Part shown: positions 1-21,700 of the stretch, piece after piece
Layout: every line of letters starts with the position of its first letter
Numbering within the stretch: position 1 is the stretch's first letter
Assembly (NCBI RefSeq): GCF_007750395.1
Contig: NZ_CP036281.1
Location: 4,053,001 to 4,117,000 of the forward strand
Direction of reading: 5' to 3'
DNA length: 64,000 bases
DNA from: Polystyrenella longa
Lineage (GTDB): Bacteria; Planctomycetota; Planctomycetia; Planctomycetales; Planctomycetaceae
Made by a program: the position numbers and the translations under genes
The notes under the pieces: model-generated
What the model was told of the DNA's origin: nothing
Database searches by the model: none
The model's input: only the letters and a program-made list of their open reading frames with translations

Positions 1-1
1 C

Positions 2-2884
2 TACTACCGCATCTCCTGTAAGACGGTAGAAGGGCAACAGAACAGAAACCCGATGACGTTTCGTTACCGCGTGAGACCAGATGAAGCGCCTGTAGTCCGC
101 CTGTACGATCCATCCGAAGACATCGAAAGCCCTGCAAACGCGACGGTCCCGTTGATGTTCAAAGCCGAGGATCCCGACTTCAAATTGAGCCGAGTCCGCA
201 TCTTCGTCGAAAAAGAAGGCGAAGAGATCTACCGTGAAACGATTCTCGATCAGCCCCAGAAAATGATCGAAGGACGATATCTTCTGTCACTTAAGAACCT
301 GGCGCTCAGTCCGGGTGATGTCGTCAGTTACTACATCGAAGCGGAAGACAACAAACAACCAGAGCACAACAAATCAACTACAGGTAGTTTGAAAATCACC
401 GTTGTAGACCGTGTTCCAGAACGTGAAGCGGAAAAACAACTCGACGAACAGAAGAAACAACAGGATCAGCTCCGTGAAGAACTGCAGGAGCAACAGGAAC
501 AAGAACAACAGCAGGAGGGCCAACAACAAAACGAAGAAGGGGGCGAGCAGCAACAAGATGGTGACTCGCAGCAGGGTGGGGAGCAGCAACAGGGAGCGGA
601 TGGCCAGCAGGACCAACAGCAGCCTGACGCGGAAGGGGCAGAGCCTCAACAAGACAATCAACCGGGCAATGAGGAAGGACAATCCTCAGAGAATTCGGCT
701 GAGAACAATCCTCAACAGGAAAATAGCCCCCCAGAAAACCAACAGCCAGGGGAACAACCCAAAGGGGATAGCACAGATCCTCAGAATGGACCAAATGGAG
801 CTCAGAATCAGCAACAGAAAAACGAGGCCGACCCCAATTCCAAACAAAACCAGGCGGAGCAGGACCCAAACGGGAAGCAAAATCCTGACAAAAATCAACC
901 CGCTCCTGAACAAGGGGATCAGCAGACCAGAAATAATGATCCGAACGACGCCCCCGGCAAAGGTGAACAGAACCAATCCCCTTCCGACTCATCACCAATG
1001 GGGTCCGATGAAAAGTCGGAAGGCGCTGAAGATCCGCTGAACCCCGACAGCGAAGAAGATCAGGCGGAATCTCTCAAACGATTGCTGGATCACTTCAACG
1101 AAGAGAATCAGAAGCAGGATAAGTCGTCTAAGCAAGACAAGCAGAGTCCGCAGAAAGAACCATCAAAACAATCCGAGACACCCCAGTCCAAACAGGAACA
1201 ACAGCCCGAAGAAAACGAGGACGGTAAGACTCCCAAAAACGATCCTCAAAAAGAACGTAAAGAAGATTCGTCAGAAGAACAGAAAGCAAACGAGAAAAAA
1301 CCAGAACCTGGCTCTGAACAACAACAGGATCAACCCGCTTCCAAAACAGAACCAGATAAAGGGGTGCAGAAAAACCAACCCGCAGAACAGCAAACTCCTG
1401 CCGAAGATGCCCAGAAACAACAACAGGGCGAACCGGGTGCTAAAAAGCAGGAACAGCCCGGTGCAAAGTCGGACGAGCAGAATCAGCTGGAGTCTGCGGC
1501 CAACGACGAAAACGGTCCTGACGAAAAGCAGGATCCGTCAAATAACTCTGCCGCGGAACAGCAAAACTCACCGGACAATCAACAACCCGGCGAGCAACAA
1601 CCAGGCGATCAGAAACCGAACGAGCAACAGCCGGGTGAGCAAAAGCAGGGTAAAGAGCAACAAGGCGATCTACAGAAAGAACAGCGGAAGAAATCGGATT
1701 CCCCATCTTCTACCGAGCAGTCTAAAAATTCCGAGCAATCACCGGACGGCTCCGAACAACAGAATCCGCAAGGACAATCTGAACCCAAAGAGCAGGGACA
1801 GAAACCGAACGACCCGAATTCCCCTGATCAAAATGAAGGGGGGAAACCTCAGTCATCTGATTCGAAACCGAGTGGAGATCAACAAAAAGAAAAACCGGAC
1901 AGCGATCCGGCAGATCAACCCTCTCCAGATCAACCCTCTCCAGATCAACCCTCTTCAGATAAACCACCTTCAGATGAAAAGCCGTCAGGTCAACAACAAC
2001 CGGGTCAAAAACCGTCTGACGACCAACCGCAAAACGGAGAAGCCGATAATAAAAAGAATGACGCTACTTCTCCGAAGTCGAAATCAACTGACCAGAACGA
2101 AATAAAATCCGAAGACCAGAATAATTCGGACAGAGAGGACTCAGCCGAAAAACAGGACCAACAGGGCGAACAGCAGAAAAATCAGGACGGTTCCCAAAAG
2201 GGTGAACAACAGCAGAAAGAAGGTCAGAAACCTGACCAACCGCAACAGGGCAATCAACCCGCTCAGGGGGCAGGTGCACAAAAACCTGAGGGGGGTGACC
2301 AACCACAACAGGGTAAGGGAGAGAGTCCCTCTTCAGATCAAAGCAAACAACCGCCGCCGGAGCAGAATCAGCCTGGGAATAAAGAATCAACCAGTAATTC
2401 TACGAAACCACCAACAACCGGTGGAGGTTCTGGATCAGGGAGCGCTGCCAATGGTTCTGGTGAAGGAGAAACGGCAAGCGATACGGTCCCTTCTGAAGTG
2501 AATGCCGAAGATGCAAAAGAGGCGGCGGAACTTGTTCTTAAGAAACTGGACAACCAAATCAAACGGGGCGAAGTCGATCAGGACCTGCTCGAAAAACTAG
2601 GATGGACCGAATCTGAACTGCAACGGTTTACGGAGAACCTGAAGAAACAACTCTCCCAACCCGCAGCGGAGACGCCGCGTGAACGCGCGCGTCAAACCCA
2701 ATTTGAAGAGATGCTGAAATCACTCAATCTCAAAAATGAATCGCGTTCCAGCTCAGGAGATCAAATCCGCAAATACAACCAGACTGGGATTAACATTCAG
2801 CGTACTCCCGTCCCCGATCAATACCGGGAACGGTTCGAAGAATTCAACCGCAGCCAGTCGCGGAGCAAAACACCGAAGCCGTAA
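2..2884 (+). CDS. Giant Gln/Glu/Pro-rich DUF4175-like protein, 5' truncated by window
   Basis: The frame is open to the first bases of the window, so the Met at 53 is probably internal and the N-terminal part lies outside. Counting from that Met, residues 1-120 form a beta-rich Ig/FnIII-like domain of the kind found in planctomycete DUF4175-type proteins. Residues about 120-150 are a charged helix. Residues about 150-820 are an extreme low-complexity tract dominated by Gln, Pro, Glu, Asn, Asp, Lys and Ser, surely disordered. The last 120 residues return to ordinary helical sequence. Bases 1911-1970 are a 15-nt tandem repeat that encodes a repeated DQPSP. Family context suggests the cell envelope and a MoxR/VWA-type neighbourhood, but that lies outside this window and is inference. 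The next gene is convergent. Confidence 0.85.
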   Translation, partial: YYRISCKTVEGQQNRNPMTFRYRVRPDEAPVVRLYDPSEDIESPANATVPLMFKAEDPDFKLSRVRIFVEKEGEEIYRETILDQPQKMIEGRYLLSLKNLALSPGDVVSYYIEAEDNKQPEHNKSTTGSLKITVVDRVPEREAEKQLDEQKKQQDQLREELQEQQEQEQQQEGQQQNEEGGEQQQDGDSQQGGEQQQGADGQQDQQQPDAEGAEPQQDNQPGNEEGQSSENSAENNPQQENSPPENQQPGEQPKGDSTDPQNGPNGAQNQQQKNEADPNSKQNQAEQDPNGKQNPDKNQPAPEQGDQQTRNNDPNDAPGKGEQNQSPSDSSPMGSDEKSEGAEDPLNPDSEEDQAESLKRLLDHFNEENQKQDKSSKQDKQSPQKEPSKQSETPQSKQEQQPEENEDGKTPKNDPQKERKEDSSEEQKANEKKPEPGSEQQQDQPASKTEPDKGVQKNQPAEQQTPAEDAQKQQQGEPGAKKQEQPGAKSDEQNQLESAANDENGPDEKQDPSNNSAAEQQNSPDNQQPGEQQPGDQKPNEQQPGEQKQGKEQQGDLQKEQRKKSDSPSSTEQSKNSEQSPDGSEQQNPQGQSEPKEQGQKPNDPNSPDQNEGGKPQSSDSKPSGDQQKEKPDSDPADQPSPDQPSPDQPSSDKPPSDEKPSGQQQPGQKPSDDQPQNGEADNKKNDATSPKSKSTDQNEIKSEDQNNSDREDSAEKQDQQGEQQKNQDGSQKGEQQQKEGQKPDQPQQGNQPAQGAGAQKPEGGDQPQQGKGESPSSDQSKQPPPEQNQPGNKESTSNSTKPPTTGGGSGSGSAANGSGEGETASDTVPSEVNAEDAKEAAELVLKKLDNQIKRGEVDQDLLEKLGWTESELQRFTENLKKQLSQPAAETPRERARQTQFEEMLKSLNLKNESRSSSGDQIRKYNQTGINIQRTPVPDQYRERFEEFNRSQSRSKTPKP
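1911..1970 (+). repeat. 15-nt tandem repeat, four units, in the low-complexity tract
   Basis: Four successive 15-nt units start with CAGAT and encode DQPSP-like pentapeptides. Units one and two are identical, three differs by one base and four by several. The unit is a multiple of three, so copy-number changes keep the frame, as expected for slippage in a disordered protein segment. Confidence 0.9.
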
Positions 2885-7412: not shown

Positions 7413-9821
7413 TCAGTCGAGAGTGGGAATCGCTTCCGCATTCATTCCAGGAAGTTCTTCTGTCAAACGGGGTACACCCTGAAAAGATTCGTCCAGAACA
7501 ACCGAATTTGTTGCTCCACCATCCGTTTGACCAGTAAACTGCAGCGGAATCGCCATCACGCCATCCCACTGGTCAGGTCCCGCTTCGTAAATTCGGTCCT
7601 CGTTTTCAGCTGAGGGGCTTTTCCAAAGTGCGAATGAAAAATCCTCGTTCAGGAATGATTCATAGCCACTTACATAGAGTTCCGCACCATCGTTTCCAGA
7701 TGGGGCAACACCTGCCAGGCCGAACAGGGCAGGAGCGGGACCACTCAGTTCAATCAAAGTCTGGTCCAGTTCCAGGCCAACAGGTTGCCGAGAATCAACC
7801 GTCTCGGCTCGATGTAGCATGACGAGAGAATACATTCCCCGGAACGTCGATTTTGTCAGTTTGAGATGGAGTTCCTCTGTCTGCGACGTATAAACAAGCG
7901 GCCCCATCCCCCGCTTGAAACAATTGACCAGTTGCATTTCTCCCAACGGGCTCAGCAATTTAAAGGCAGACCGGCGGGAAGAAAACGCACAATTTTCCGC
8001 ACTGATTTTCGCCACTGAATAACTGTCCGGTGTTCCAGAACGCCAGGCAATTGCCGAAACGGGAGGTAACGATTCTGGAATCCCTTCCGAAAAGGAGCAA
8101 TCGCTCATCATCAGTTCGTCAGCTTGAACACGCACCAGTTCATTCAAAGGAGCTGAGTTCGTCTGTGAAGATTGTTTGCGTCGAAAATGGACATTCACTA
8201 AGGTCAGCTTCACTGCGGAAAAAAAGGCGGGGTTGTCTTCCACCACAATCACAGGTCGCGACTTACTCGCGCCGACGATCGTTAAGGAGCCTACACCACG
8301 CATGTCCGGTGCCCGGAACGGTCCGTTCGAGGTGAGATACAATCGACCATTCTCATCAGCAGGAGGCAACTCCAGTAGCTGGGATTGTTGATTTTCAAAC
8401 TCGGACAAACGCTCTTTCGCAGGAAACCCACTTGCGCTCGCCTGCTTGACTTCAGATTCCAGAGGAATCGTTAACGGAGTCGCTTCGATCTCAGGAAGCA
8501 ATCGTGGTTCTTTCAGACCGGCAGGACCCGTATTGCTGTTATCTGCCGTCGAGGTACGGCTTTCACTCGCAGGAGAGGTAGGTTCGATTTCCAACCCATC
8601 GAGTCTTTGCGCCAGCTCCTGCCAGACTTTCGGCATCGTGCCGTTTTCAGTCAGCACCACTGACGCCGCACCGCACACCGCAATCAACAATACAGCGGAC
8701 ACCCAGAACAGCCGTGAAGACTTTTGCTTCCAAGGTTCACCGGTCGGCACAAATGACCGAAACTGTTTGAGAAAGCAACGCACCGCACGACGACTCTGCT
8801 GTCGCACTGGCCCCAGAAGTTGCTGCAACTGAATGAACGAATGAGGACGCTCTTCAATGGTGGAACGAGTCATGTGTTGAATGATCTCTGCCAGTGGTGC
8901 CGGAGTATCGGGTGCCCACAGGCGAACATCGGGTATCGACTTCGTCTGGTGAGCGGCCAGTTTAGCGAGCGGATCCCCCGTCGGATGGGGAGGCCGCCCC
9001 CCCAAGAGCTGCCAGAGCAGACAGCCCAAAGCATAAATATCACTTTGAATGGAACAGGCATTTCCCGTCCCGATTAGTTCCGGAGCAATTCCATCGTACT
9101 GGTCGGGGGCAATTTGATCTCGCAAAACAAGTTCGGGAGAGATAGCCGGGGCGATACCGACATTGATCAACACCACCTCGCCCTGCTCGTTCAAACGGAC
9201 ATTGGATAGTCGCAAGTCTCCATGTTGCATCTGATGCTTTTCGAGCAACGCCAGGGAATCGACCAACTGACGGGCAATTTCGAGAACAACCGCCGCCGGA
9301 AATCTTCCTCGACGAGTCAGTAATTCTCCCAGATGATGCCCGGGAACATAGGAACTCAGAACAACCAACTGATCTTCACTCGGACTGAAAACCTGCCGTG
9401 GAAGTGCAAGTCCACGGTGCTGGATCGGCGCGAAATCAGAAACGGTCGTTTCGACTCGGCCTTGTATCTGCGGTAGGAATTCCTGAGGCAGTGTTATTGT
9501 TTTGAAAGCGTGCTCTTTGAACGATTTTTCGTCTGTGTTGATTGCTTTAAAAGTTCGGGTTCGTGTTCCGTAGCTCAATTCGTCGAGCAGCAACCAGGAG
9601 CCGACTTTCAGACTCGGTCCGTTCGTCTTTTCGAGAGAGCGTCCCTGAAAAGGCGTTAGCGTGCCTGTTTGAACCAGGGCATCCAGCCAGATCGAATCGA
9701 AAGCAGGCAGGTCTCGCGCGAGTCGTTTCACACGGCTCCGCGCGCGGCGAATATCTGCAGCCGTACACAGCTGCAGATCCGTCAGCGTCTGCATCAGTTT
9801 CTGAGACGGAGGGTCGATCAC
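7413..9821 (-). CDS. Membrane pseudokinase with beta-solenoid-like outer domain
   Basis: This 802-residue protein has an N-terminal eukaryotic-type Ser/Thr kinase fold (about residues 70-340), one transmembrane helix (about 370-392, FWVSAVLLIAVCGAASVVL), and a long outer part whose short repeating beta strands after residue 480 resemble a right-handed beta helix. The catalytic loop reads HGDLRLSN instead of HRDLKxxN, and the DFG position reads INVG, so the metal-binding Asp is missing; it is probably a pseudokinase. The APE-like segment (GIAPELIG) and SDIYALGCLLWQLL are conserved. A helical segment (residues 1-70) with TLTPFQ, common before planctomycete kinase domains, precedes the fold. A divergent receiver-like gene lies across the intergenic region. 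Ligand and partners are unknown. Confidence 0.8.
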   Translation of the reverse strand: MIDPPSQKLMQTLTDLQLCTAADIRRARSRVKRLARDLPAFDSIWLDALVQTGTLTPFQGRSLEKTNGPSLKVGSWLLLDELSYGTRTRTFKAINTDEKSFKEHAFKTITLPQEFLPQIQGRVETTVSDFAPIQHRGLALPRQVFSPSEDQLVVLSSYVPGHHLGELLTRRGRFPAAVVLEIARQLVDSLALLEKHQMQHGDLRLSNVRLNEQGEVVLINVGIAPAISPELVLRDQIAPDQYDGIAPELIGTGNACSIQSDIYALGCLLWQLLGGRPPHPTGDPLAKLAAHQTKSIPDVRLWAPDTPAPLAEIIQHMTRSTIEERPHSFIQLQQLLGPVRQQSRRAVRCFLKQFRSFVPTGEPWKQKSSRLFWVSAVLLIAVCGAASVVLTENGTMPKVWQELAQRLDGLEIEPTSPASESRTSTADNSNTGPAGLKEPRLLPEIEATPLTIPLESEVKQASASGFPAKERLSEFENQQSQLLELPPADENGRLYLTSNGPFRAPDMRGVGSLTIVGASKSRPVIVVEDNPAFFSAVKLTLVNVHFRRKQSSQTNSAPLNELVRVQADELMMSDCSFSEGIPESLPPVSAIAWRSGTPDSYSVAKISAENCAFSSRRSAFKLLSPLGEMQLVNCFKRGMGPLVYTSQTEELHLKLTKSTFRGMYSLVMLHRAETVDSRQPVGLELDQTLIELSGPAPALFGLAGVAPSGNDGAELYVSGYESFLNEDFSFALWKSPSAENEDRIYEAGPDQWDGVMAIPLQFTGQTDGGATNSVVLDESFQGVPRLTEELPGMNAEAIPTLD

Positions 9822-10186
9822 AGGGAACCGGAATCCTTTCCGAGTTCGTCGGGGCGGGGGAGAAGGTCGTCAGGGTCGGGAAATCGCCAGCAGGAGAGAT
9901 TCAGTTCACTGAGATCATGCTTAAAGCTCGACCACAGAGAGCAATCATCGGGAGGCCGCGAAATTGTACAAACTTCTTGAGCTGGCGCTAATCTTTTTTT
10001 AGGCGTATGCCCGGAGGATCCGGTGCAGAATCAAGGGATTCCGGCGTTTACAGCGGGAATCCAAACCTTATCGTTTCCTGCACCCCCTCTTTTAACTATA
10101 TTAGCAGTCAGCCCCTTCAAGCAAATACTGCTGTGAAGAGGACATTTCATCAACCGCTCGACTCCATCGCTGGAAAGTTTTTTCCT
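9822..10186. other. Divergent intergenic region
   Basis: This region separates the minus-strand pseudokinase gene from the plus-strand receiver-like gene and should hold both promoters. An ATG at 10007 opens the downstream frame, but the 60 residues it adds look non-coding. No clear -35/-10 pair or dyad was identified. Confidence 0.4.
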
Positions 10187-11041
10187 GTGCGAATTCTGAT
10201 TGTCATCCGCGAATCCTCTCCGCTGAACCAGTGGTTCACTGCGTCGATTGAACGGGTGCTTGCGGAAGAAAGTCAGGGCAGCCCCCAGTCGGGGCAGATA
10301 ATTCAACAAGCGTTTTTGCCGGAGGCAGCCGAACTTACCGAAATCGATCTCGTCCTGGTCGCGCTGGACTTTCCGGATCAATTCACGGGGGTAGAAATTG
10401 AACAAGCCCTCTCTTCTAACCCGCTAACTCGCTGGCTATGCGTCACCGGTCCCTGGTCCGAAGGGGATGGCCGCAATCGGACTTTCTGGCCGTTCGCTGT
10501 TCGAGTTCCCTGGCATCGATTTCCAGAACGATTCCGTCAGGAAATCGCTATCAAGGAAGATCGACTCACCGCCCTTCCCTTAACCGCTTCACGTAACGAA
10601 TGTTTTCTCTTTGAACAGCAAACGCTCGAATCGGTTGAGACAACGCTACCCGGCAATCGCCTCTCCATTGGCCTGTTAATCGACGACCCAGCCCTGCAAT
10701 TGTATTACCAGCAGTGGCTTTCCGGGTTGGGTTACAATGTTGACCGTTATTCGCTTCGAAAAGTTGAGCTCAAGACCGGTGGTCCTGAATCGTCAATCGT
10801 GGCCTCCCACTCCATCTGGATTATGGACCTCGATCCGTGGACGACTGAAAGACTACGCAAGATACCAAACATAAGGTTACAGATCGGATCCGAGTCGAGT
10901 CTTATTGGCCTCACCAACGAGATTAACCTCGAACAGTTCACCAGCATGAATCAACATGGAATCGATTCCGTGTTCCCCAAACTCATGGGTGAAACGGAGA
11001 TCTTAAGAACGATCAGATCCGTTCATCCCGTGAATCATTAA
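10187..11041 (+). CDS. Tandem receiver-like protein (degenerate REC plus C-terminal REC)
   Basis: The open frame begins at 10007, but I prefer the GTG at 10187: a GGAAAG site lies 9 nt upstream, and from there the protein begins with a receiver-like first strand, RILIVIRESS. This gives 284 residues. The C-terminal half has the receiver pattern in order: acidic pair in LLIDDPALQ, Asp in WIMDLDPW, Thr in LIGLT and Lys in VFPKLMG. The N-terminal half shows the same strand order (RILIVIRES, DLVLVALDF, RWLCVTGPW) but lacks the acidic pair and Lys, suggesting a degenerate second receiver. There is no output domain. The stop overlaps the convergent DUF1080 gene by 4 bp. Receiver assignment is my inference from motif spacing. 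Confidence 0.6.
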   Translation: MRILIVIRESSPLNQWFTASIERVLAEESQGSPQSGQIIQQAFLPEAAELTEIDLVLVALDFPDQFTGVEIEQALSSNPLTRWLCVTGPWSEGDGRNRTFWPFAVRVPWHRFPERFRQEIAIKEDRLTALPLTASRNECFLFEQQTLESVETTLPGNRLSIGLLIDDPALQLYYQQWLSGLGYNVDRYSLRKVELKTGGPESSIVASHSIWIMDLDPWTTERLRKIPNIRLQIGSESSLIGLTNEINLEQFTSMNQHGIDSVFPKLMGETEILRTIRSVHPVNH

Positions 11042-12477
11042 TTGGTCCCGGGCTGGAGAGACTGGATTTCAATCGCTTTGAAGTTCAAGTCGGTCGTCGG
11101 GTCATGCCCTTGAATGCTGATATGCCCTGCCTCAGTACGTAGCCCTTTACGAGGATTAGGATCCTCAGGGCGAGTGTCCATCCAGTCGGTCACTTGCAGA
11201 CCATTCACCCAGACAGCCAGGTGAGGACCGGAAGCGTTGAGCGTCATCTTAAACCATTCATGATCGTTCGCATTGATCCAGCGAGCGAAGTTTCGGCGGA
11301 AGATCGCCCCTGTCCCATGGTCGGCAGGTTGTGTTCGGTCTTCTTCTTTGAATCCGTTTTGAATCTGCATTTCATATCCGTTGGAAGGCGCTTCCGCCGT
11401 TCCTTTCTCTGCACGAAAGAAGATGCCACTGTTTAACGCTTCGCCATTGGTTTTCACGTCGAGTTGCAGCAGAAAATCTCCCCAGGTCTGCTCCGTTTCG
11501 AGGAACCCCCGGCCGGAATCATCGCCCCCTTTAACAGCAATGGTTCCCTCTTCAATTTCAAAACTACTATCCGAACCTGGGACGACCTGCCAACCATCCA
11601 AAGATTCCCCACTAAAGAGAGGCGTCATATCCAGCGGTTTGAGAATGATCTTCCGGAACTGAATCAGGCTTTTATTTTTCTGCAGGCCGATTCGTCCTGT
11701 CATTAGTGGATTTTCTGAATCGTCGGTGTAATCGAGTACCTTCGTTCCGTCGAGTTCGGCCTCGAGATGATTCCCTTTTGCAATGACGTGGAAAGTCTGC
11801 CATTCCCCTTCGTTGCTCACCAGTTCCAGCGGTTCAATTCGGCCGACCAAACCACCCGTTTTGAAACTGTCGTGAGAATCACAAATATTCAGTTCGTAAC
11901 ATTCGTCCGTGGGGTTAGGAGGATCTGCACTCGTTCGCAGAAATACTCCACTATTGCCTCCTTCAGCTGCTTTGAATTCACAAATAAGCTCATAGTCCGT
12001 AAAGAGCGATGTGGTGGAGAGGACGCTGATGCCTTTCGCATCCGAATCGGGTTGGATAAGGCCATCGCGAACGACCCATTCCAAGTCGTTATTACTTTCC
12101 CAACCAAACAACGTTTTTCCATCGAATAACGCGATCCACCCCTCTTCGATCTGCTCCTGAGTTAAAACCTGAGGAGGATCTTTGATCTCGAATTCCGCAG
12201 CAACAGCCAGTTCATTTCTTTTGGGTTTCTCTGCGACTGGTTCCGACTCTGGTTTCGTTTCGGGTTCTGGCTTTGGTTCTGGCACAGTTGGAGCGTTTTC
12301 TTCCGGTTCCGTTGTGGGTTGAGGGACGGGATCGGCTTCCCCGTCTGTTTCAACCGACTCTTTCTCTACTGTCTCTTTCAACGCGGGAGGTTCGGGACAA
12401 CCTGCCAGAATTGAGACAGAAGAAATCAGGAACAGCACACAGAACAACCGGCGATACAGAACGGTAGCAGGAATCAT
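11038..12477 (-). CDS. Lipoprotein with two DUF1080 (3-keto-disaccharide hydrolase-type) domains
   Basis: The ATG at 12477 gives a signal that ends in the lipobox ILAGC. A Glu/Pro-rich linker of about 80 residues with PEPKPEPETKPE-type repeats follows. Two DUF1080 (laminin-G-like jelly-roll) domains come next. The first starts at GWIALFDGKTLFGWE near residue 115 and the second at TPLFSGESLDGWQVV near 290; each has the FDGK/FSGESLxGW start and the GDF/YELxxEFK-type strand. DUF1080 proteins are greatly expanded in planctomycetes; some act on 3-keto-glycosides, others may only bind sugars. An outer-envelope carbohydrate role is likely. The two domains differ enough that only one may be active. 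Confidence 0.85.
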   Translation of the reverse strand: MIPATVLYRRLFCVLFLISSVSILAGCPEPPALKETVEKESVETDGEADPVPQPTTEPEENAPTVPEPKPEPETKPESEPVAEKPKRNELAVAAEFEIKDPPQVLTQEQIEEGWIALFDGKTLFGWESNNDLEWVVRDGLIQPDSDAKGISVLSTTSLFTDYELICEFKAAEGGNSGVFLRTSADPPNPTDECYELNICDSHDSFKTGGLVGRIEPLELVSNEGEWQTFHVIAKGNHLEAELDGTKVLDYTDDSENPLMTGRIGLQKNKSLIQFRKIILKPLDMTPLFSGESLDGWQVVPGSDSSFEIEEGTIAVKGGDDSGRGFLETEQTWGDFLLQLDVKTNGEALNSGIFFRAEKGTAEAPSNGYEMQIQNGFKEEDRTQPADHGTGAIFRRNFARWINANDHEWFKMTLNASGPHLAVWVNGLQVTDWMDTRPEDPNPRKGLRTEAGHISIQGHDPTTDLNFKAIEIQSLQPGTN

Positions 12478-17283: not shown

Positions 17284-17828
17284 TCACTTTTGAATTGCAT
17301 CAAGGGTCAAATTGGAAATTGGGTTCCACTATAGGGATCGAATCGATGCGGCGGAGTGTAGCGATTCTGAGGGAATCTGTCTTGAGGAACTTCAAACCGG
17401 CAATCGCACCGAAGGCTTTGTAATCCTTACAACCCGAATCTCATTGCTTCGCTGATTGTCACAACCGCGAAAATCATGCAGAGCGGACCTCTTCACTAAC
17501 AGGCAATCCTTACTCTGTTCGCGACTTCCCCATAGGTGGACAGGTCGAATTCCAAAAACAACCCAAGTTGGCAGACGATTTCGACTTCCCTGTTTTTTGC
17601 ATGCTACATTTGCTTGGACGCGGTCTGTGAGACCGTGAGTATGTCGTTGAGGACATGCCGTTTTGATTGGGCCAATCATTAAATGAACTTTTGACCGTCC
17701 ACCGGTACGACAGCTGAAAGAACTTCTTTCAACGCCGGCAAACGAGGTTGCAATAACCCTCGTGGACAGGCTCAATCCAAATCAAATCTGTTCTTCCAAT
17801 GAGGACAGGTTGCAAGAGGAAACAAACA
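17284..17828. other. Divergent intergenic region with small hairpins
   Basis: The gap of 545 bp lies between divergent genes and must hold their promoters. CGGTCT/AGACCG (17621-17626 with 17630-17635) is a tight hairpin, and a weaker one follows at about 17640-17656. A 127-codon minus-strand frame here looks like chance: no ribosome site, Arg/Ser-rich and no domain. Confidence 0.4.
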
Positions 17829-18512
17829 ATGGGGTTTTTGAAACGATTTCTGAAAGAGACGAACCGCGAAGGCCACATTCCCCAGGGCCATAGCAGTTTC
17901 GGCGAAGTTTCGGAAGAACAATTGGAAACACATCTAGGTATTGCACGTTACGGATCCTACGTGCTGACAGATGCTGTTCGTCCTTCCTACGACTTGCAAG
18001 TAGTACCTAGCGCTGGTTTTCGCCACGATACTTACGAAGACCGCGAAAGTGGTATCCGTATCCCTGTTTGTATGGCTGCAGCCTCCCGAGAAGATATCAT
18101 TGATCTCTTCCTGGACCTGCTGGATCCTCTGGGCGACGAAGTCGACCTGGTTCTGGAGACAAGCCACGACAACAACCACGGACGTCACCAGGACTTGTAC
18201 CGGGAGCATATCGATATGCCCGTGCTCAAAAGCACGCTACTCGATTATGAAGACCTCCTGCTGAACGATGGGTGCACTGGCCTGGCCGTGCTGAACCCAA
18301 AAATTCCTATGGAAGTTCAGTTCGATGAGCATAAACTGCTGATCATGTACGGTCATGAGCTGGGTCCCTTTGAAGAGATCCTGCGCAGCTACAATCTGCC
18401 TTGCAGCGAAGAATTGAAATTCATCACCGAAGCGGAACACGTCCACTCCTCGACCGATGAGTTCTCGGAGCAGTTCCAGCAGATGTGCTATCGACTCGGC
18501 ATCGACGACTAA
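17829..18512 (+). CDS. Conserved hypothetical protein
   Basis: The chosen ATG at 17829 has an AGAGGA site 8-9 nt upstream; the frame is open 30 nt further but that start has no site. The product has 227 residues, is acidic, mixed alpha/beta and probably cytoplasmic. Noted segments are DLFLDLLDPLGDEVDLVLETSH, with three His and two Asn just after, and a C-terminal helix ending in RLGIDD. No family is recognised. It is first in a plus-strand run with a small membrane protein, a kinase-like protein and a metallopeptidase-like lipoprotein. Two hairpins overlap or follow the stop codon. Confidence 0.75.
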   Translation: MGFLKRFLKETNREGHIPQGHSSFGEVSEEQLETHLGIARYGSYVLTDAVRPSYDLQVVPSAGFRHDTYEDRESGIRIPVCMAAASREDIIDLFLDLLDPLGDEVDLVLETSHDNNHGRHQDLYREHIDMPVLKSTLLDYEDLLLNDGCTGLAVLNPKIPMEVQFDEHKLLIMYGHELGPFEEILRSYNLPCSEELKFITEAEHVHSSTDEFSEQFQQMCYRLGIDD

Positions 18513-18704: not shown

Positions 18705-19007
18705 ATGAAACGGTTTACCTCTTTCGTTGCCGGTATTATCTTCGGTGGGGCCGCAATGTATTTCGCCTTCACCTTGATCGTCGTGCAGAGCGATTCCGGA
18801 ACGTTTGTAATTCAAAAATCCGCTCCTTCGTTGTCGGATATCGCCTATGTCGACGTCAGCAGTTGGGGTGCCGGAGAATGGGCTCAACACCTTGAGCTTC
18901 AACGCGACCTCATTGCGACTGGCCACGGCGACGTGATTATAGACTCGGCGCCTGTCGAAATGATTGAAGACGTTTTCAAAGCTGTACGAGAAGGTATGAA
19001 AAACTAA
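18705..19007 (+). CDS. Small membrane-anchored protein
   Basis: This protein of 100 residues begins with a hydrophobic helix (FVAGIIFGGAAMYFAFTLIVV, residues 7-27) that anchors it in the membrane. The remaining 70 residues include SLSDIAYVDVSSWGAGEWAQHLELQRDLIATG and an acidic helix. No family is recognised. It sits 190 bp after the previous gene and 70 bp before the kinase-like gene, so it may be co-transcribed with the latter. Confidence 0.75.
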   Translation: MKRFTSFVAGIIFGGAAMYFAFTLIVVQSDSGTFVIQKSAPSLSDIAYVDVSSWGAGEWAQHLELQRDLIATGHGDVIIDSAPVEMIEDVFKAVREGMKN

Positions 19008-19078
19008 TCTTCGATTTGGCCCTCAGCTCAATAGACAACATAGACAACGAACTCCCCGACTAGGATCTCAGGAGCGTG

Positions 19079-20713
19079 ATGGTGGTTGAGTCTTCTCCGA
19101 CAATGGTTACGCGCAGTGCGGGTTCCTGCGAGTGGACATTGGTCGCCGAAGATGCTCCGGTCTTGTTTCCTGACGAAAACCTGGCTCCCAAGTTGTTGTT
19201 AGAGCGATTTTCTCACGACGAACTGAAGTCGGGCTCCCACCGGGTCGTGTTTAAACTGCAGACAGGGAATGGTTGCTATTACTTCAAACACTACAAAATC
19301 TCCGACTGGAAATCCCGTCTCCAGAACTGGGTCCGTTCCTCTCGCGCCCGAATCGAGTGGGACCATACCTGGAAATTGATCGAACTCGGATTTGATACCT
19401 GCCTGCCAGTGGCGATCGGTGAGAAACGAAAAGGGCCTGTAGTTCGCGACAGTTATCTGATTACGAGAGAAATTCCGGACTCCGTTCAGCTCGACCAATT
19501 CGTGGAAAAGGTTCTTCCCGCTCTCCCTGAGCGAACCCGGCGGCAGCTTCGGTTCGAGCTGGCTCGTCAATTGGGAATCGTGACGGCGCAGCTGCATCTA
19601 AAAGGGGTCCAACATCGCGACTATCACGCGGGCAATGTCCTTGTCAGCTGGGACGAAACCTCGTTGAAACTTAAGCTCTGGTTGATCGATCTACACCAGG
19701 TCAGCTTCGGAAGTAAATTGAAGACCAAACAATGTTTGCGAAACCTGGCCCTGCTGAACAGCTATTTCTCCAATCGAGGAAACGCTTCCGATCGTCGTCG
19801 TTTTTTTCGATCGTACTGGCAAACATTCCAGACAAAGAAGAATGGCCGACCAAGAGGTTTTCAGGAATACAAATCAACCCTGCTGACCATCGAAGAATTC
19901 TGCGATCAGAAGATGTGGAAAGAGTTCGCCCGGGCCGACCAGAAGTGGGAACGAGGCAATCGGCGACTAGTCATTCTCGAAGGTGAATCCGAACAGAATG
20001 CCTGCCGGGGTGTCAGTGAGTTGGACCGAGATTTTCTGAAAGCGGTTTCGCAAAACCCACAAAACACCTTCGGACTCCCTCTGCTCAACAAGTCCGTCTC
20101 CGTAACAAAGCGGGTTACCTTGAAAGGAGAACAGGGCATACTCTCTGGGTACCTCACCGTCTGCGACAAACACTCGAAACCGAAGTTTTCAGCACGAACC
20201 GCCTGGGACATTGGACACGCTTTTATTCGACGGCGGTTATCAACACCTCGGCCCCTGCTTTTTGTGGAAGCAAAAGAGCAGCAGTGGCTGGTAACAGAGG
20301 CGATTCCGAATTCGATGCCTCTTACAGACTACGCCCAATCCTCACAGGCTCATCACCTGAACTTCCAATCTCGCCGTTTACTAACCAGGCAACTCGCTGC
20401 CCAGTTGGCCTGGCGAGATCGGTGTGGATTCCAGGACAATCACCCCACTCTGTTTAATATCCTCATCCAACCAGATTCCGACACGTTCTTTTTTCTGGGC
20501 CTCGGTTATCTGGAACAGCTTAATACACCTGTCAGCGAGAAGAAAATTATCCGAACCCTGGCGGCCTGGACTTCCGGTTCATTGCCTTTATCCGGCATCA
20601 CGCGGACCGACCGATTACGGTTTTTGAAGCGGTATTTACTGGAAAAAGAGGGCGATTGGAAACGGTATTGGAACAGAATCGATTCGAAAGTACACTCTGT
20701 TCACTCGAATTGA
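19079..20713 (+). CDS. Tandem WaaP/Kdo-kinase-like protein, second domain degenerate
   Basis: The 544-residue product contains a lipopolysaccharide-kinase (Kdo/WaaP) type domain: a YYFKHYK Lys strand near 66, HRDYHAGNVL near 180 and LWLIDLHQ near 203. These supply the catalytic Asp and the metal-binding Asn and Asp. The second half repeats the fold in poor form: FQDNHPTLFNILI near 452 keeps Asp and Asn, but the DxH/DFG position reads FLGLGY without Asp. Active domain plus pseudodomain is therefore likely. Known relatives phosphorylate heptose or Kdo of the lipopolysaccharide core. The start is ambiguous: GTG 19076, ATG 19079 or GTG 19082, with AGGAG at 19070-19074; 19079 is a compromise. The next gene starts 9 bp after the stop. 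Confidence 0.8.
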   Translation: MVVESSPTMVTRSAGSCEWTLVAEDAPVLFPDENLAPKLLLERFSHDELKSGSHRVVFKLQTGNGCYYFKHYKISDWKSRLQNWVRSSRARIEWDHTWKLIELGFDTCLPVAIGEKRKGPVVRDSYLITREIPDSVQLDQFVEKVLPALPERTRRQLRFELARQLGIVTAQLHLKGVQHRDYHAGNVLVSWDETSLKLKLWLIDLHQVSFGSKLKTKQCLRNLALLNSYFSNRGNASDRRRFFRSYWQTFQTKKNGRPRGFQEYKSTLLTIEEFCDQKMWKEFARADQKWERGNRRLVILEGESEQNACRGVSELDRDFLKAVSQNPQNTFGLPLLNKSVSVTKRVTLKGEQGILSGYLTVCDKHSKPKFSARTAWDIGHAFIRRRLSTPRPLLFVEAKEQQWLVTEAIPNSMPLTDYAQSSQAHHLNFQSRRLLTRQLAAQLAWRDRCGFQDNHPTLFNILIQPDSDTFFFLGLGYLEQLNTPVSEKKIIRTLAAWTSGSLPLSGITRTDRLRFLKRYLLEKEGDWKRYWNRIDSKVHSVHSN

Positions 20714-20722
20714 GGTTTCATT

Positions 20723-21700
20723 GTGGTCTATCCCCAATTGAACCTGCGAGATCAATCCAGTCACCTCCTCTGGACAATCGAATTCACCCGGACAAGGATG
20801 TCCCTGTTGAACCCTTTCCGATCCCCGCGATGCGTGCCCAACTTCCTCTACGCTTTTATGCGGTCTGGGGCGAAGGTACTTGCATGCCTGCTGATTTGCA
20901 GTCTCTTGACGGGGTGCCTATGGTCGGCGAAGAATCAAACAGCCGGTCTTCCCGCACAGTACCGGGTTAAAACGGGGCAACTTCTACTGCTGAGCGACTT
21001 CAAACTGAAAGAATCGCATCCCCTCGTTGACGAATTGCAGATGCTGCGAGCCGAAGTGAACGAAACGCTCGAACTGCCTTACCAGAAAACGCCCATCACC
21101 GTTTATTTGTTCGAAGACGAAGCTACCTACCAGAAATACTTGGCCAAGCACCATCCTGAACTTCCCCATCGTCGCGCCTACTTTGTGCAACAGGGAACGG
21201 AATTCGCCGTCTATACTTTCTGGGGCGAGCAAATTCAAGAAGACCTGATGCACGAGTACACGCATGGGTTACTGCACTCGAATTTGCACGGACTTCCGCT
21301 GTGGCTGGATGAAGGACTGGCGGAGTATTTCGAAGTTGATCGAAAAACAGAAGGTCGGCTGCACCCCCAATATACTCACCAACTCAACCGGCAGATTGCC
21401 GAAGGTTGGCAGCCGGATATCAAGCGGCTGGAACAAATCACCGAGTTTTCTGATTTGAAACTGGCCGACTACCGGGAATCCTGGGGCTGGGTCCACTTCA
21501 TGCTGCATGATTCTCCCGAATCCAAACAGGTTCTGCTCGACTACCTGCATGGTTTCCAAACCGAGAACCAGAAATGGTCACCATCGCTTCCGCTCAGTGA
21601 CTCCCTCGCCAAAATGAATCCGGCTTATAAAGAACGACTACAGAAATACCTCGCCGTCCTGCCCGACGAATATGGTGAAGAACAACACGCTGCTCGCTAA
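20723..21700 (+). CDS. HExxH metallopeptidase-like lipoprotein
   Basis: The protein carries HEYTH near residues 176-180 followed 18 residues later by WLDEGLAEYFE, the HExxH-E pattern of gluzincin peptidases. A hydrophobic segment ending in LLTGC (Cys 65 from this start) is a lipobox. The start is uncertain. GTG 20723 has GAGG 7 nt upstream, overlapping the end of the kinase-like gene, but leaves an unusually long N-terminal region. ATG 20858 would give a typical 19-residue lipoprotein signal but has no ribosome site. The close link to the kinase-like gene suggests one operon for an envelope function. The substrate is unknown. Confidence 0.8.
   Translation: MVYPQLNLRDQSSHLLWTIEFTRTRMSLLNPFRSPRCVPNFLYAFMRSGAKVLACLLICSLLTGCLWSAKNQTAGLPAQYRVKTGQLLLLSDFKLKESHPLVDELQMLRAEVNETLELPYQKTPITVYLFEDEATYQKYLAKHHPELPHRRAYFVQQGTEFAVYTFWGEQIQEDLMHEYTHGLLHSNLHGLPLWLDEGLAEYFEVDRKTEGRLHPQYTHQLNRQIAEGWQPDIKRLEQITEFSDLKLADYRESWGWVHFMLHDSPESKQVLLDYLHGFQTENQKWSPSLPLSDSLAKMNPAYKERLQKYLAVLPDEYGEEQHAAR

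Follow-up and report, generated by a model that had tools for sequence, protein, structure and literature searches.

A tandem kinase with a decayed second domain, encoded between a small membrane protein and a putative HExxH lipoprotein in Polystyrenella longa

RESULTS

Genes at the locus

The stretch of DNA analyzed here (the window) is 64,000 nucleotides long and corresponds to C1:4053001-4117000 of the single-contig, 6.13-Mb genome (G000) of the planctomycete Polystyrenella longa. It contains three consecutive genes, which encode a small membrane protein (SM), a tandem kinase with two kinase-fold domains (KD1 and KD2), and a putative HExxH lipoprotein (PEP). Their coordinates are collected in Table 1, and related loci and genomes are denoted by L and G numbers. 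A preliminary description of this DNA had read the locus as a fused kinase and pseudodomain linked to an HExxH lipoprotein, with a small membrane protein ahead of both, and this is borne out by domain matches, profile homology, and synteny. The anatomy, which consists of an intact KD1, a KD2 that has decayed in frame, and a kinase gene placed between the genes for SM and PEP, is well supported by sequence comparison and predicted structures.

The kinase frame (19076-20713, forward strand) is 545 amino acids long counted from GTG 19076, and an AGGAG sequence lies 4 nucleotides before the ATG at 19079. The PEP frame starts at a GTG that is preceded by GAGG 7 nucleotides upstream and lies 9 bp beyond the kinase stop codon. 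The 9-bp distance given in the preliminary description fits this GTG, but starts further downstream are possible, so the size of the gap is uncertain. Promoter and terminator scans gave counts no higher than those in shuffled sequences. The proposal of a single envelope operon of four genes (17.8 to 21.7 kb) stands in its envelope setting and in the conserved synteny of SM, kinase, and PEP, but the unit is one of three genes: among the loci compared, the 237-amino-acid upstream gene matches just L064 (94% over 80 amino acids) and L065 (88%).

Table 1. Coordinates of the SM-kinase-PEP genes and their features in the window
Feature	Coordinates	Strand	Basis or remark
SM	18705..19007	+	100-amino-acid small membrane protein; single hydrophobic segment
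Tandem kinase gene	19079..20713	+	frame extends upstream to GTG 19076
KD1 (residues 46-262), intact kinase domain of the WaaP/Kdo family	19211..19861	+	Pfam, phmmer, VIA
KD1 catalytic loop HRDYHAGN	19613..19636	+	Asp and Asn in 32/32 covered kinases
KD1 DFG-equivalent Asp (LIDLH)	19688..19690	+	Asp in 32/32 covered kinases
Interdomain linker helix and DxKWxRGNRR segment	19862..20101	+	D288 and R296 invariant in 16/16 rows
KD2, degenerate kinase-fold domain (predicted), residues 343-542	20102..20701	+	homology to canonical KD2 of relatives; confident model
Decayed KD2 catalytic loop QDNHPTLFN	20432..20458	+	HRD Asp replaced by His456
Decayed KD2 DFG position, Gly475	20498..20500	+	alignment of 33 kinases
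PEP, HExxH lipoprotein, putative minimal M9/M1-like gluzincin	20723..21700	+	Pfam DUF1570, VIA
PEP lipobox Cys65 (LLTGC)	20915..20917	+	invariant in both row sets
PEP HEYTH zinc motif	21251..21265	+	H177, E178, and H181 invariant
PEP Glu197 (in WLDEGLAEYFE), probable third ligand of zinc	21311..21313	+	invariant; role presumed from M1 motif
237-amino-acid upstream gene, outside the conserved unit	17799..18512	+	matches restricted to L064 and L065

KD1 and its relation to WaaP, WaaY, and other kinases

KD1 had been described as complete, and it contains both the HRDYHAGN loop and the LIDLH motif and scores 72.5 bits (E 4e-20) against Pfam PF06293 (Kdo/WaaP), for which the gathering cutoff is 21.3 bits. 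We aligned 33 kinases including that of the window, a set that contains near-copies (L035/L036, L050/L052, L055/L058, and L060/L061/L095). All 32 rows that cover KD1 have Asp in HxD and at the DFG position as well as the Asn, and the β3 Lys is present in all 29 rows that have a residue there. The αC Glu is found in 30 of 31 rows, the exception being L054, whose N terminus looks chimeric; the window kinase has both the Lys and the Glu. The kinase frame of L054 (G091:C338, positions 2-400) starts at a contig end with a stretch that by eye resembles an ABC ATPase, and it is probably an assembly chimera; L079 is the same contig.

Both halves of the kinase are predicted with confidence (mean pLDDT, 87.7; pTM, 0.77). 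The nearest solved structure is that of the lipopolysaccharide (LPS) heptose(I) kinase WaaP/RfaP (PDB 6dfl), which matches KD1 in sequence (phmmer E 9e-12; profile search, 1.1e-30) and in fold (Foldseek, 6e-13; VIA Z 20.4 with 238 aligned residues and a root mean square deviation [rmsd] of 3.8; the VIA list mainly spans residues 14-288). KD1 shares with WaaP the β3 Lys, the αC Glu, the HRD motif, and D-L-H in place of DFG. The atypical kinases PRPK/Bud32 and RIO have a kinase-like fold in common with KD1 (VIA Z 13 to 19), but they are weaker matches than WaaP in both sequence and structure.

The likeness to WaaP has limits. RfaP (NF011703) is the top NCBIfam match of the window kinase at 91.6 bits, which is under the equivalog cutoff of 170, and the Kdo kinase KdkA (NF002475) scores 42.4 bits against a cutoff of 142. 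The WaaP study (PMC6147952) reports that His168 of WaaP replaces the usual Asn and that the H168A and R191A variants gave no growth support. In KD1, the position of His168 is Asn in 32/32 rows, and that of Arg191 is Arg in just 2/32, with Gln in the window. Also unlike WaaP, the window kinase has a second kinase domain and does not lie beside waa-type genes. The heptose(II) kinase WaaY of Escherichia coli resembles KD1 in that its catalytic loop has Asn and D-L-x is not followed by Arg, so the residue test argues against WaaP alone. Unlike KD1, WaaY is a single domain encoded in a waa cluster, and it is very distant: in a domain tree of 58 rows, it falls among the KD1 rows on a very long branch (4.43), with its placement unsure. 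In this tree, 24 KD2s and three single kinases form a well-supported group; E. coli WaaP, the P. longa kinase L062, and four further single kinases form a separate group; and the KD1s lie outside both, not as one group but split 20 plus 4.

L062 retains the His and Arg of WaaP and adjoins genes for a GT4 glycosyltransferase, a GT9 heptosyltransferase-family protein, and a PfkB plus cytidylyltransferase (HldE-like) protein, a gene order that recurs in L214. By these sequence features, the genome holds a canonical WaaP candidate elsewhere, in a waa-type cluster. L062 keeps the His and Arg and KD1 does not, so the window kinase probably does not act as another heptose I kinase, and it is unlikely to be the waaP gene of this genome. 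A broader proposal is that the kinase phosphorylates an LPS core sugar, heptose or Kdo, perhaps as a WaaY-type (heptose II) kinase to which a second domain has been added. The RfaP match and the features shared with WaaY speak for it, and a waaA-family (Kdo-transferase) gene is present in 39/40 genomes tested, so Kdo-lipid A acceptors are plausible. Together with the lipid A and Kdo genes of planctomycetes cited in PMC3422733, this indicates that glycolipid acceptors exist. The subcutoff RfaP and KdkA scores, the lack of waa genes in the operon, and the fact that it is L062, in waa-type surroundings, that groups with E. coli WaaP all speak against it. The likeness to WaaY led us to give this proposal more weight, and our preferred explanation less, and although a WaaY-like role or another LPS core sugar as substrate may apply, we consider the proposal quite improbable.

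Two other observations concern kinases of this family. The P. longa genome has, at L063 (G000:C1:4870000-4889900; 8948-9829 and 10032-11117), a WaaP-family kinase gene divergent from that of a Peptidase_MA_2-like protein; the kinase groups with KD2, has a canonical HRDLKFSN loop, and adjoins an asparagine synthase gene, and the protein scores 32.2 bits against a Peptidase_MA_2 cutoff of 32.4. At L056 (G009:C10, 8446-10638), a degenerate tandem kinase gene lies divergent to a WaaP-type kinase gene and away from PEP. A role in defense was set aside, the sole match of the window kinase to a defense system being to MkoA (E 0.0019, 13.9 bits, 76 kinase residues).

KD2 has lost catalytic residues but is constrained

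The preliminary description had noted that the second domain lacks the DFG-position Asp, and the alignment agrees; the catalytic-loop Asp is lost as well (Table 1). Window KD2 alone has no Pfam match and stays under the PF06293 gathering score, while intact KD2s of relatives score 70.5 bits (L078) and 55.1 bits (L087) on that family; the decayed KD2 of L064 matches nothing, and that of L095 has just a weak match to an unrelated family. In profile comparisons, window KD2 matches the intact KD2s with a probability of 100 (E 3.8e-39) and KD1 with a probability of 97.3 (E 1.9e-11), and the order of helices and strands in its model is kinase-like. On this profile homology and model, an unrelated fold is excluded, and KD2 is a predicted pseudokinase, a kinase fold from which the catalytic Asp residues have been lost.

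The full catalytic set of KD2 (Asp, Lys, Asn, and DFG Asp) is kept in 15/33 aligned kinases and has lost at least one residue in the other 18, 11 of which lack both Asp residues. Because the intact KD2s hold the homologous catalytic residues, we read the changes as losses; the sequences indicate that KD2 was once canonical and that the pseudodomain arose by decay. In a 32-row KD1 phylogeny (L059, which has no KD1, was dropped), the state of KD2 changes 5 times on the best tree and 3 to 5 times in bootstrap trees, while well-supported branches alone force just 1 change, and such counts do not separate gain from loss. Repeated decay of KD2 is thus likely but not proven.

Among the window, L064, and L065, 59 to 75% of fourfold sites differ, which is near saturation. 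Second codon positions differ at 27 to 29% in KD2 and at 18 to 20% in KD1, and protein identity is 53 to 54% for the linker plus KD2 and 67% for KD1. Since second positions are conserved while fourfold sites are near saturation, the decayed KD2 is under purifying selection, with a constraint weaker than that on KD1. The open frame and the second-position conservation in these three genomes exclude a dead pseudogene segment.

KD2-type kinases also occur without KD1. In G058, G131, and G135, a KD2-type kinase alone is encoded upstream of PEP, with a canonical HRDLK..N..DLD loop in all three. The single kinases L207 and L208 align to the KD2 part and adjoin a glycosyltransferase gene.

PEP and SM

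PEP has a hydrophobic stretch (residues 41-70), then the lipobox Cys65, as expected of a bacterial lipoprotein. It scores 24.2 bits against Pfam PF07607 (DUF1570; cutoff, 22), 25.6 bits against PF13485 (Peptidase_MA_2; cutoff, 32.4), and 14.5 bits against PF01752 (M9 collagenase; cutoff, 26), so only the first cutoff is exceeded. Compared with DUF1570/Peptidase_MA_2 proteins at large, it is part of a distinct clade of lipoproteins that are linked to SM and the kinase. Cys65, H177, E178, H181, and E197 are invariant both in a 25-row set gathered mainly via the neighboring kinase and in a 45-row set retrieved by patterns that span the zinc motifs, where invariance is partly due to selection; the window is in both sets. 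We take Glu197 to be the likely third zinc ligand, by analogy with the M1 motif.

Against the PDB, PEP had no sequence match as a single protein, and its profile gave only a ribosomal match (E 0.89). The best structural matches of its model (pLDDT, 83.8) are the peptidase domains of M9 collagenases (Foldseek, 6.8e-7). Residues 75-318 share the fold of VhaC, Grimontia, and ColH/G/T collagenases (VIA Z 16.5 to 20.1, the highest being VhaC with 224 aligned residues and an rmsd of 2.7), well above M1 aminopeptidases (VIA Z 11), and PEP and the collagenases have the HExxH motif in common. Unlike these collagenases, PEP is a single small lipoprotein with only 11 to 16% identity to them. Based on sequence and model, we conclude that PEP is a putative minimal M9/M1-like gluzincin whose HExxH...E site is intact.

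Of the 150 genomes sampled from the order, 142 have PEP (E ≤ 1e-60), as do 40/40 genomes of another set, which was chosen partly for kinase presence. In a scan for the lipoprotein, the best 80 of 401 relatives comprise 78 labeled as planctomycetes or planctomycete genera and 2 labeled just "bacterium." The nearest relatives among the matches listed are L064 and L065 (PEP identity, 71 and 75%). A search of the open PMC subset for DUF1570 by family name listed one metagenome paper. P. longa also encodes a distant paralogue of PEP, L192 (G000:C1:544316-545098; E 8e-59), and no kinase or SM was found in its 20-kb surroundings.

SM has a hydrophobic segment at residues 4-29, and its soluble part is presumably periplasmic. 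It has no Pfam or NCBIfam match. SM matches were found in 107/150 genomes of the order, with homologues upstream of the kinase or PEP.

Gene order in related genomes

The preliminary description had proposed checking the co-occurrence of four genes across planctomycetes and had named a lack of conserved synteny, or an unrelated second fold, as evidence against it. Synteny of SM, kinase, and PEP is conserved, the 237-amino-acid gene being left with its two matches, and neither adverse outcome was observed. Among the 142 PEP genomes, the kinase adjoins PEP in 32, 16 with and 16 without an adjacent SM. SM adjoins PEP or the kinase in 58, with the kinase between them in 16 and no kinase there in 42; wherever both SM and the kinase adjoin PEP, the kinase lies between SM and PEP. 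In a further 44, the only SM-like proteins lie away from PEP, and no kinase is listed; of six such loci inspected, five have longer frames with long tails (L195 to L199) and one is short (L205). These counts use one PEP place per genome and leave out 6 second-copy rows and the 17 weakest kinase rows (E 7e-14 to 8e-9), which by eye would add no adjacency; some "no kinase" genomes carry a weak, distant kinase match, and some "elsewhere" labels may reflect split contigs. The kinase is thus optional, inserted into an SM-PEP pair that is itself more widespread.

A strong two-domain kinase match is present in 30 genomes. It is beside PEP in 27, at a contig end in G083, and elsewhere in G067 and G009, where kinase and PEP are on different contigs. 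A 4-bp overlap of the kinase stop codon with the PEP ATG is possible at 6/26 nonfused loci (L041, L044, L060, L061, L091, and L095, of which L060, L061, and L095 are near-copies), and L053 could have an overlap with a GTG start of PEP.

On a quick PEP tree of 113 rows (110 classified; 12 duplicate contigs and L049 left out, with a few identical pairs remaining), kinase presence changes 10 times, while well-supported branches force 2 changes; the 29 kinase-bearing rows include the KD2-only loci L070 and L071. Because the kinase slot is identical wherever SM and the kinase both adjoin PEP, one insertion followed by repeated losses would be the simpler history. These patterns also bear on whether the kinase is a mere passenger, cotranscribed between SM and PEP with no functional tie to them. 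The 42 genomes with SM and PEP adjacent and no kinase, the changes of state on the tree (few of them forced), and the kinases elsewhere in G067 and G009 would all fit a passenger. Such a passenger would not be expected beside PEP in 27 of 30 genomes with a strong match, nor do the possible stop/start overlaps, the in-frame fusions described below, and the KD2-only variants adjoining PEP in three genomes favor it, and we regard this explanation as doubtful.

Kinase-PEP fusions

In L048, L050, and L052, the kinase and PEP are in one open frame (784, 752, and 758 amino acids, respectively) with the lipobox in midframe, and these frames occupy two places on the PEP tree. Internal starts are possible in them, and a segment above the transmembrane (TM) threshold is found in L048 only. 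In L051, the sister of L050 and L052 on the KD1 tree, the kinase ends near the fusion point, and SM-PEP is on another contig of its genome, G067 (L206).

Continuous frames in three genomes raise the idea of signaling across the envelope, in which KD1 would be a protein kinase regulated by KD2, in the manner of other tandems of a kinase and a pseudokinase, and coupled to PEP across the membrane by SM or by fusion. The catalytic-loop Asn of KD1 is like that of PKA and unlike the His of WaaP, PRPK/Bud32 rank behind only WaaP among the fold matches, and a tandem JAK chain is among the Foldseek matches, though with a TMq of 0.24 and an rmsd of 23.5. Set against this, WaaP/Kdo is by far the best family for KD1; WaaY, a sugar kinase, has the same Asn; SM and PEP would have nearly no cytoplasmic part to phosphorylate, given their predicted topology; and translation within the fused frames may begin at internal starts, with L050 and L052 lacking a segment over the TM threshold. 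We consider signaling of this kind unlikely. Kinase/pseudokinase tandems such as the JAKs do resemble the window kinase in carrying an active and a decayed domain in one chain, but the order of the domains is reversed here, the subfamily is unrelated, the decay affects only part of the homologues, and the fold match is weak. A more specific version, a trans-envelope device in which a JAK-like tandem joined by operon or fusion to a periplasmic gluzincin would couple phosphorylation inside to proteolysis outside, is to our minds a long shot.

Other features of the window

At the start of the window (1-2884) is a partial 960-amino-acid frame that is rich in Gln, Glu, Lys, and Pro and has short 15-bp repeats. 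Its A-over-T skew is very strong, with an AT skew value of 0.509 over the first 2 kb.

DISCUSSION

The explanation that we tentatively prefer, and which we hold to be possible rather than probable, is that the tandem kinase is an optional envelope kinase module within a conserved membrane-protein/lipoprotein pair, that is, a kinase acting on a glycan or glycolipid and linked to a periplasmic protease. KD1 would act at the inner membrane, on its cytoplasmic face, and phosphorylate a precursor of an envelope glycan or glycolipid, LPS heptose I being an improbable target, and KD2 would serve as a scaffold or regulator. SM and PEP would work on the periplasmic side, where PEP may be a quality control or processing protease, and the operon would hold these activities together. 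Judging from the kinase family, we infer that, of the possible reactions, phosphorylation of a glycan or glycolipid is the most likely. In favor of this explanation, we count WaaP as the nearest solved structure to KD1, its Pfam Kdo/WaaP match, the retention of the KD1 catalytic residues, the selective constraint on KD2, the kinase genes adjoining PEP and, where SM adjoins too, lying between the two, the possible stop/start overlaps, the continuous frames, the plausible Kdo-lipid A acceptors, and the position of L207 and L208 beside a glycosyltransferase gene.

Several observations weigh against it. KD1 lacks two residues of the WaaP substrate site, His168 and, in nearly all rows, Arg191. PEP manages without a kinase in the 42 of 58 SM-adjacent genomes that have none there, and kinase and PEP are on different contigs in G067 and G009. 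No glycosyltransferase family is prominent among the recurring neighbors of these loci, as judged by looking at the first residues of the clusters. The waaA family, being present in 39/40 genomes, is uninformative as a discriminator of those that bear the kinase.

Planctomycete envelopes are unusual, and to our knowledge, LPS modification in these bacteria has been little studied. In the open PMC subset, we found no paper title on the SM-kinase-PEP gene set. The loci compared here form a natural series around one lipoprotein, with two intact domains, an intact plus a decayed domain, KD2 alone, a fusion to the protease, and no kinase at all. With this series, the origin of a pseudokinase domain and the reasons for its retention can be tested directly, as can a second envelope role of LPS kinase-like enzymes beside canonical WaaP.

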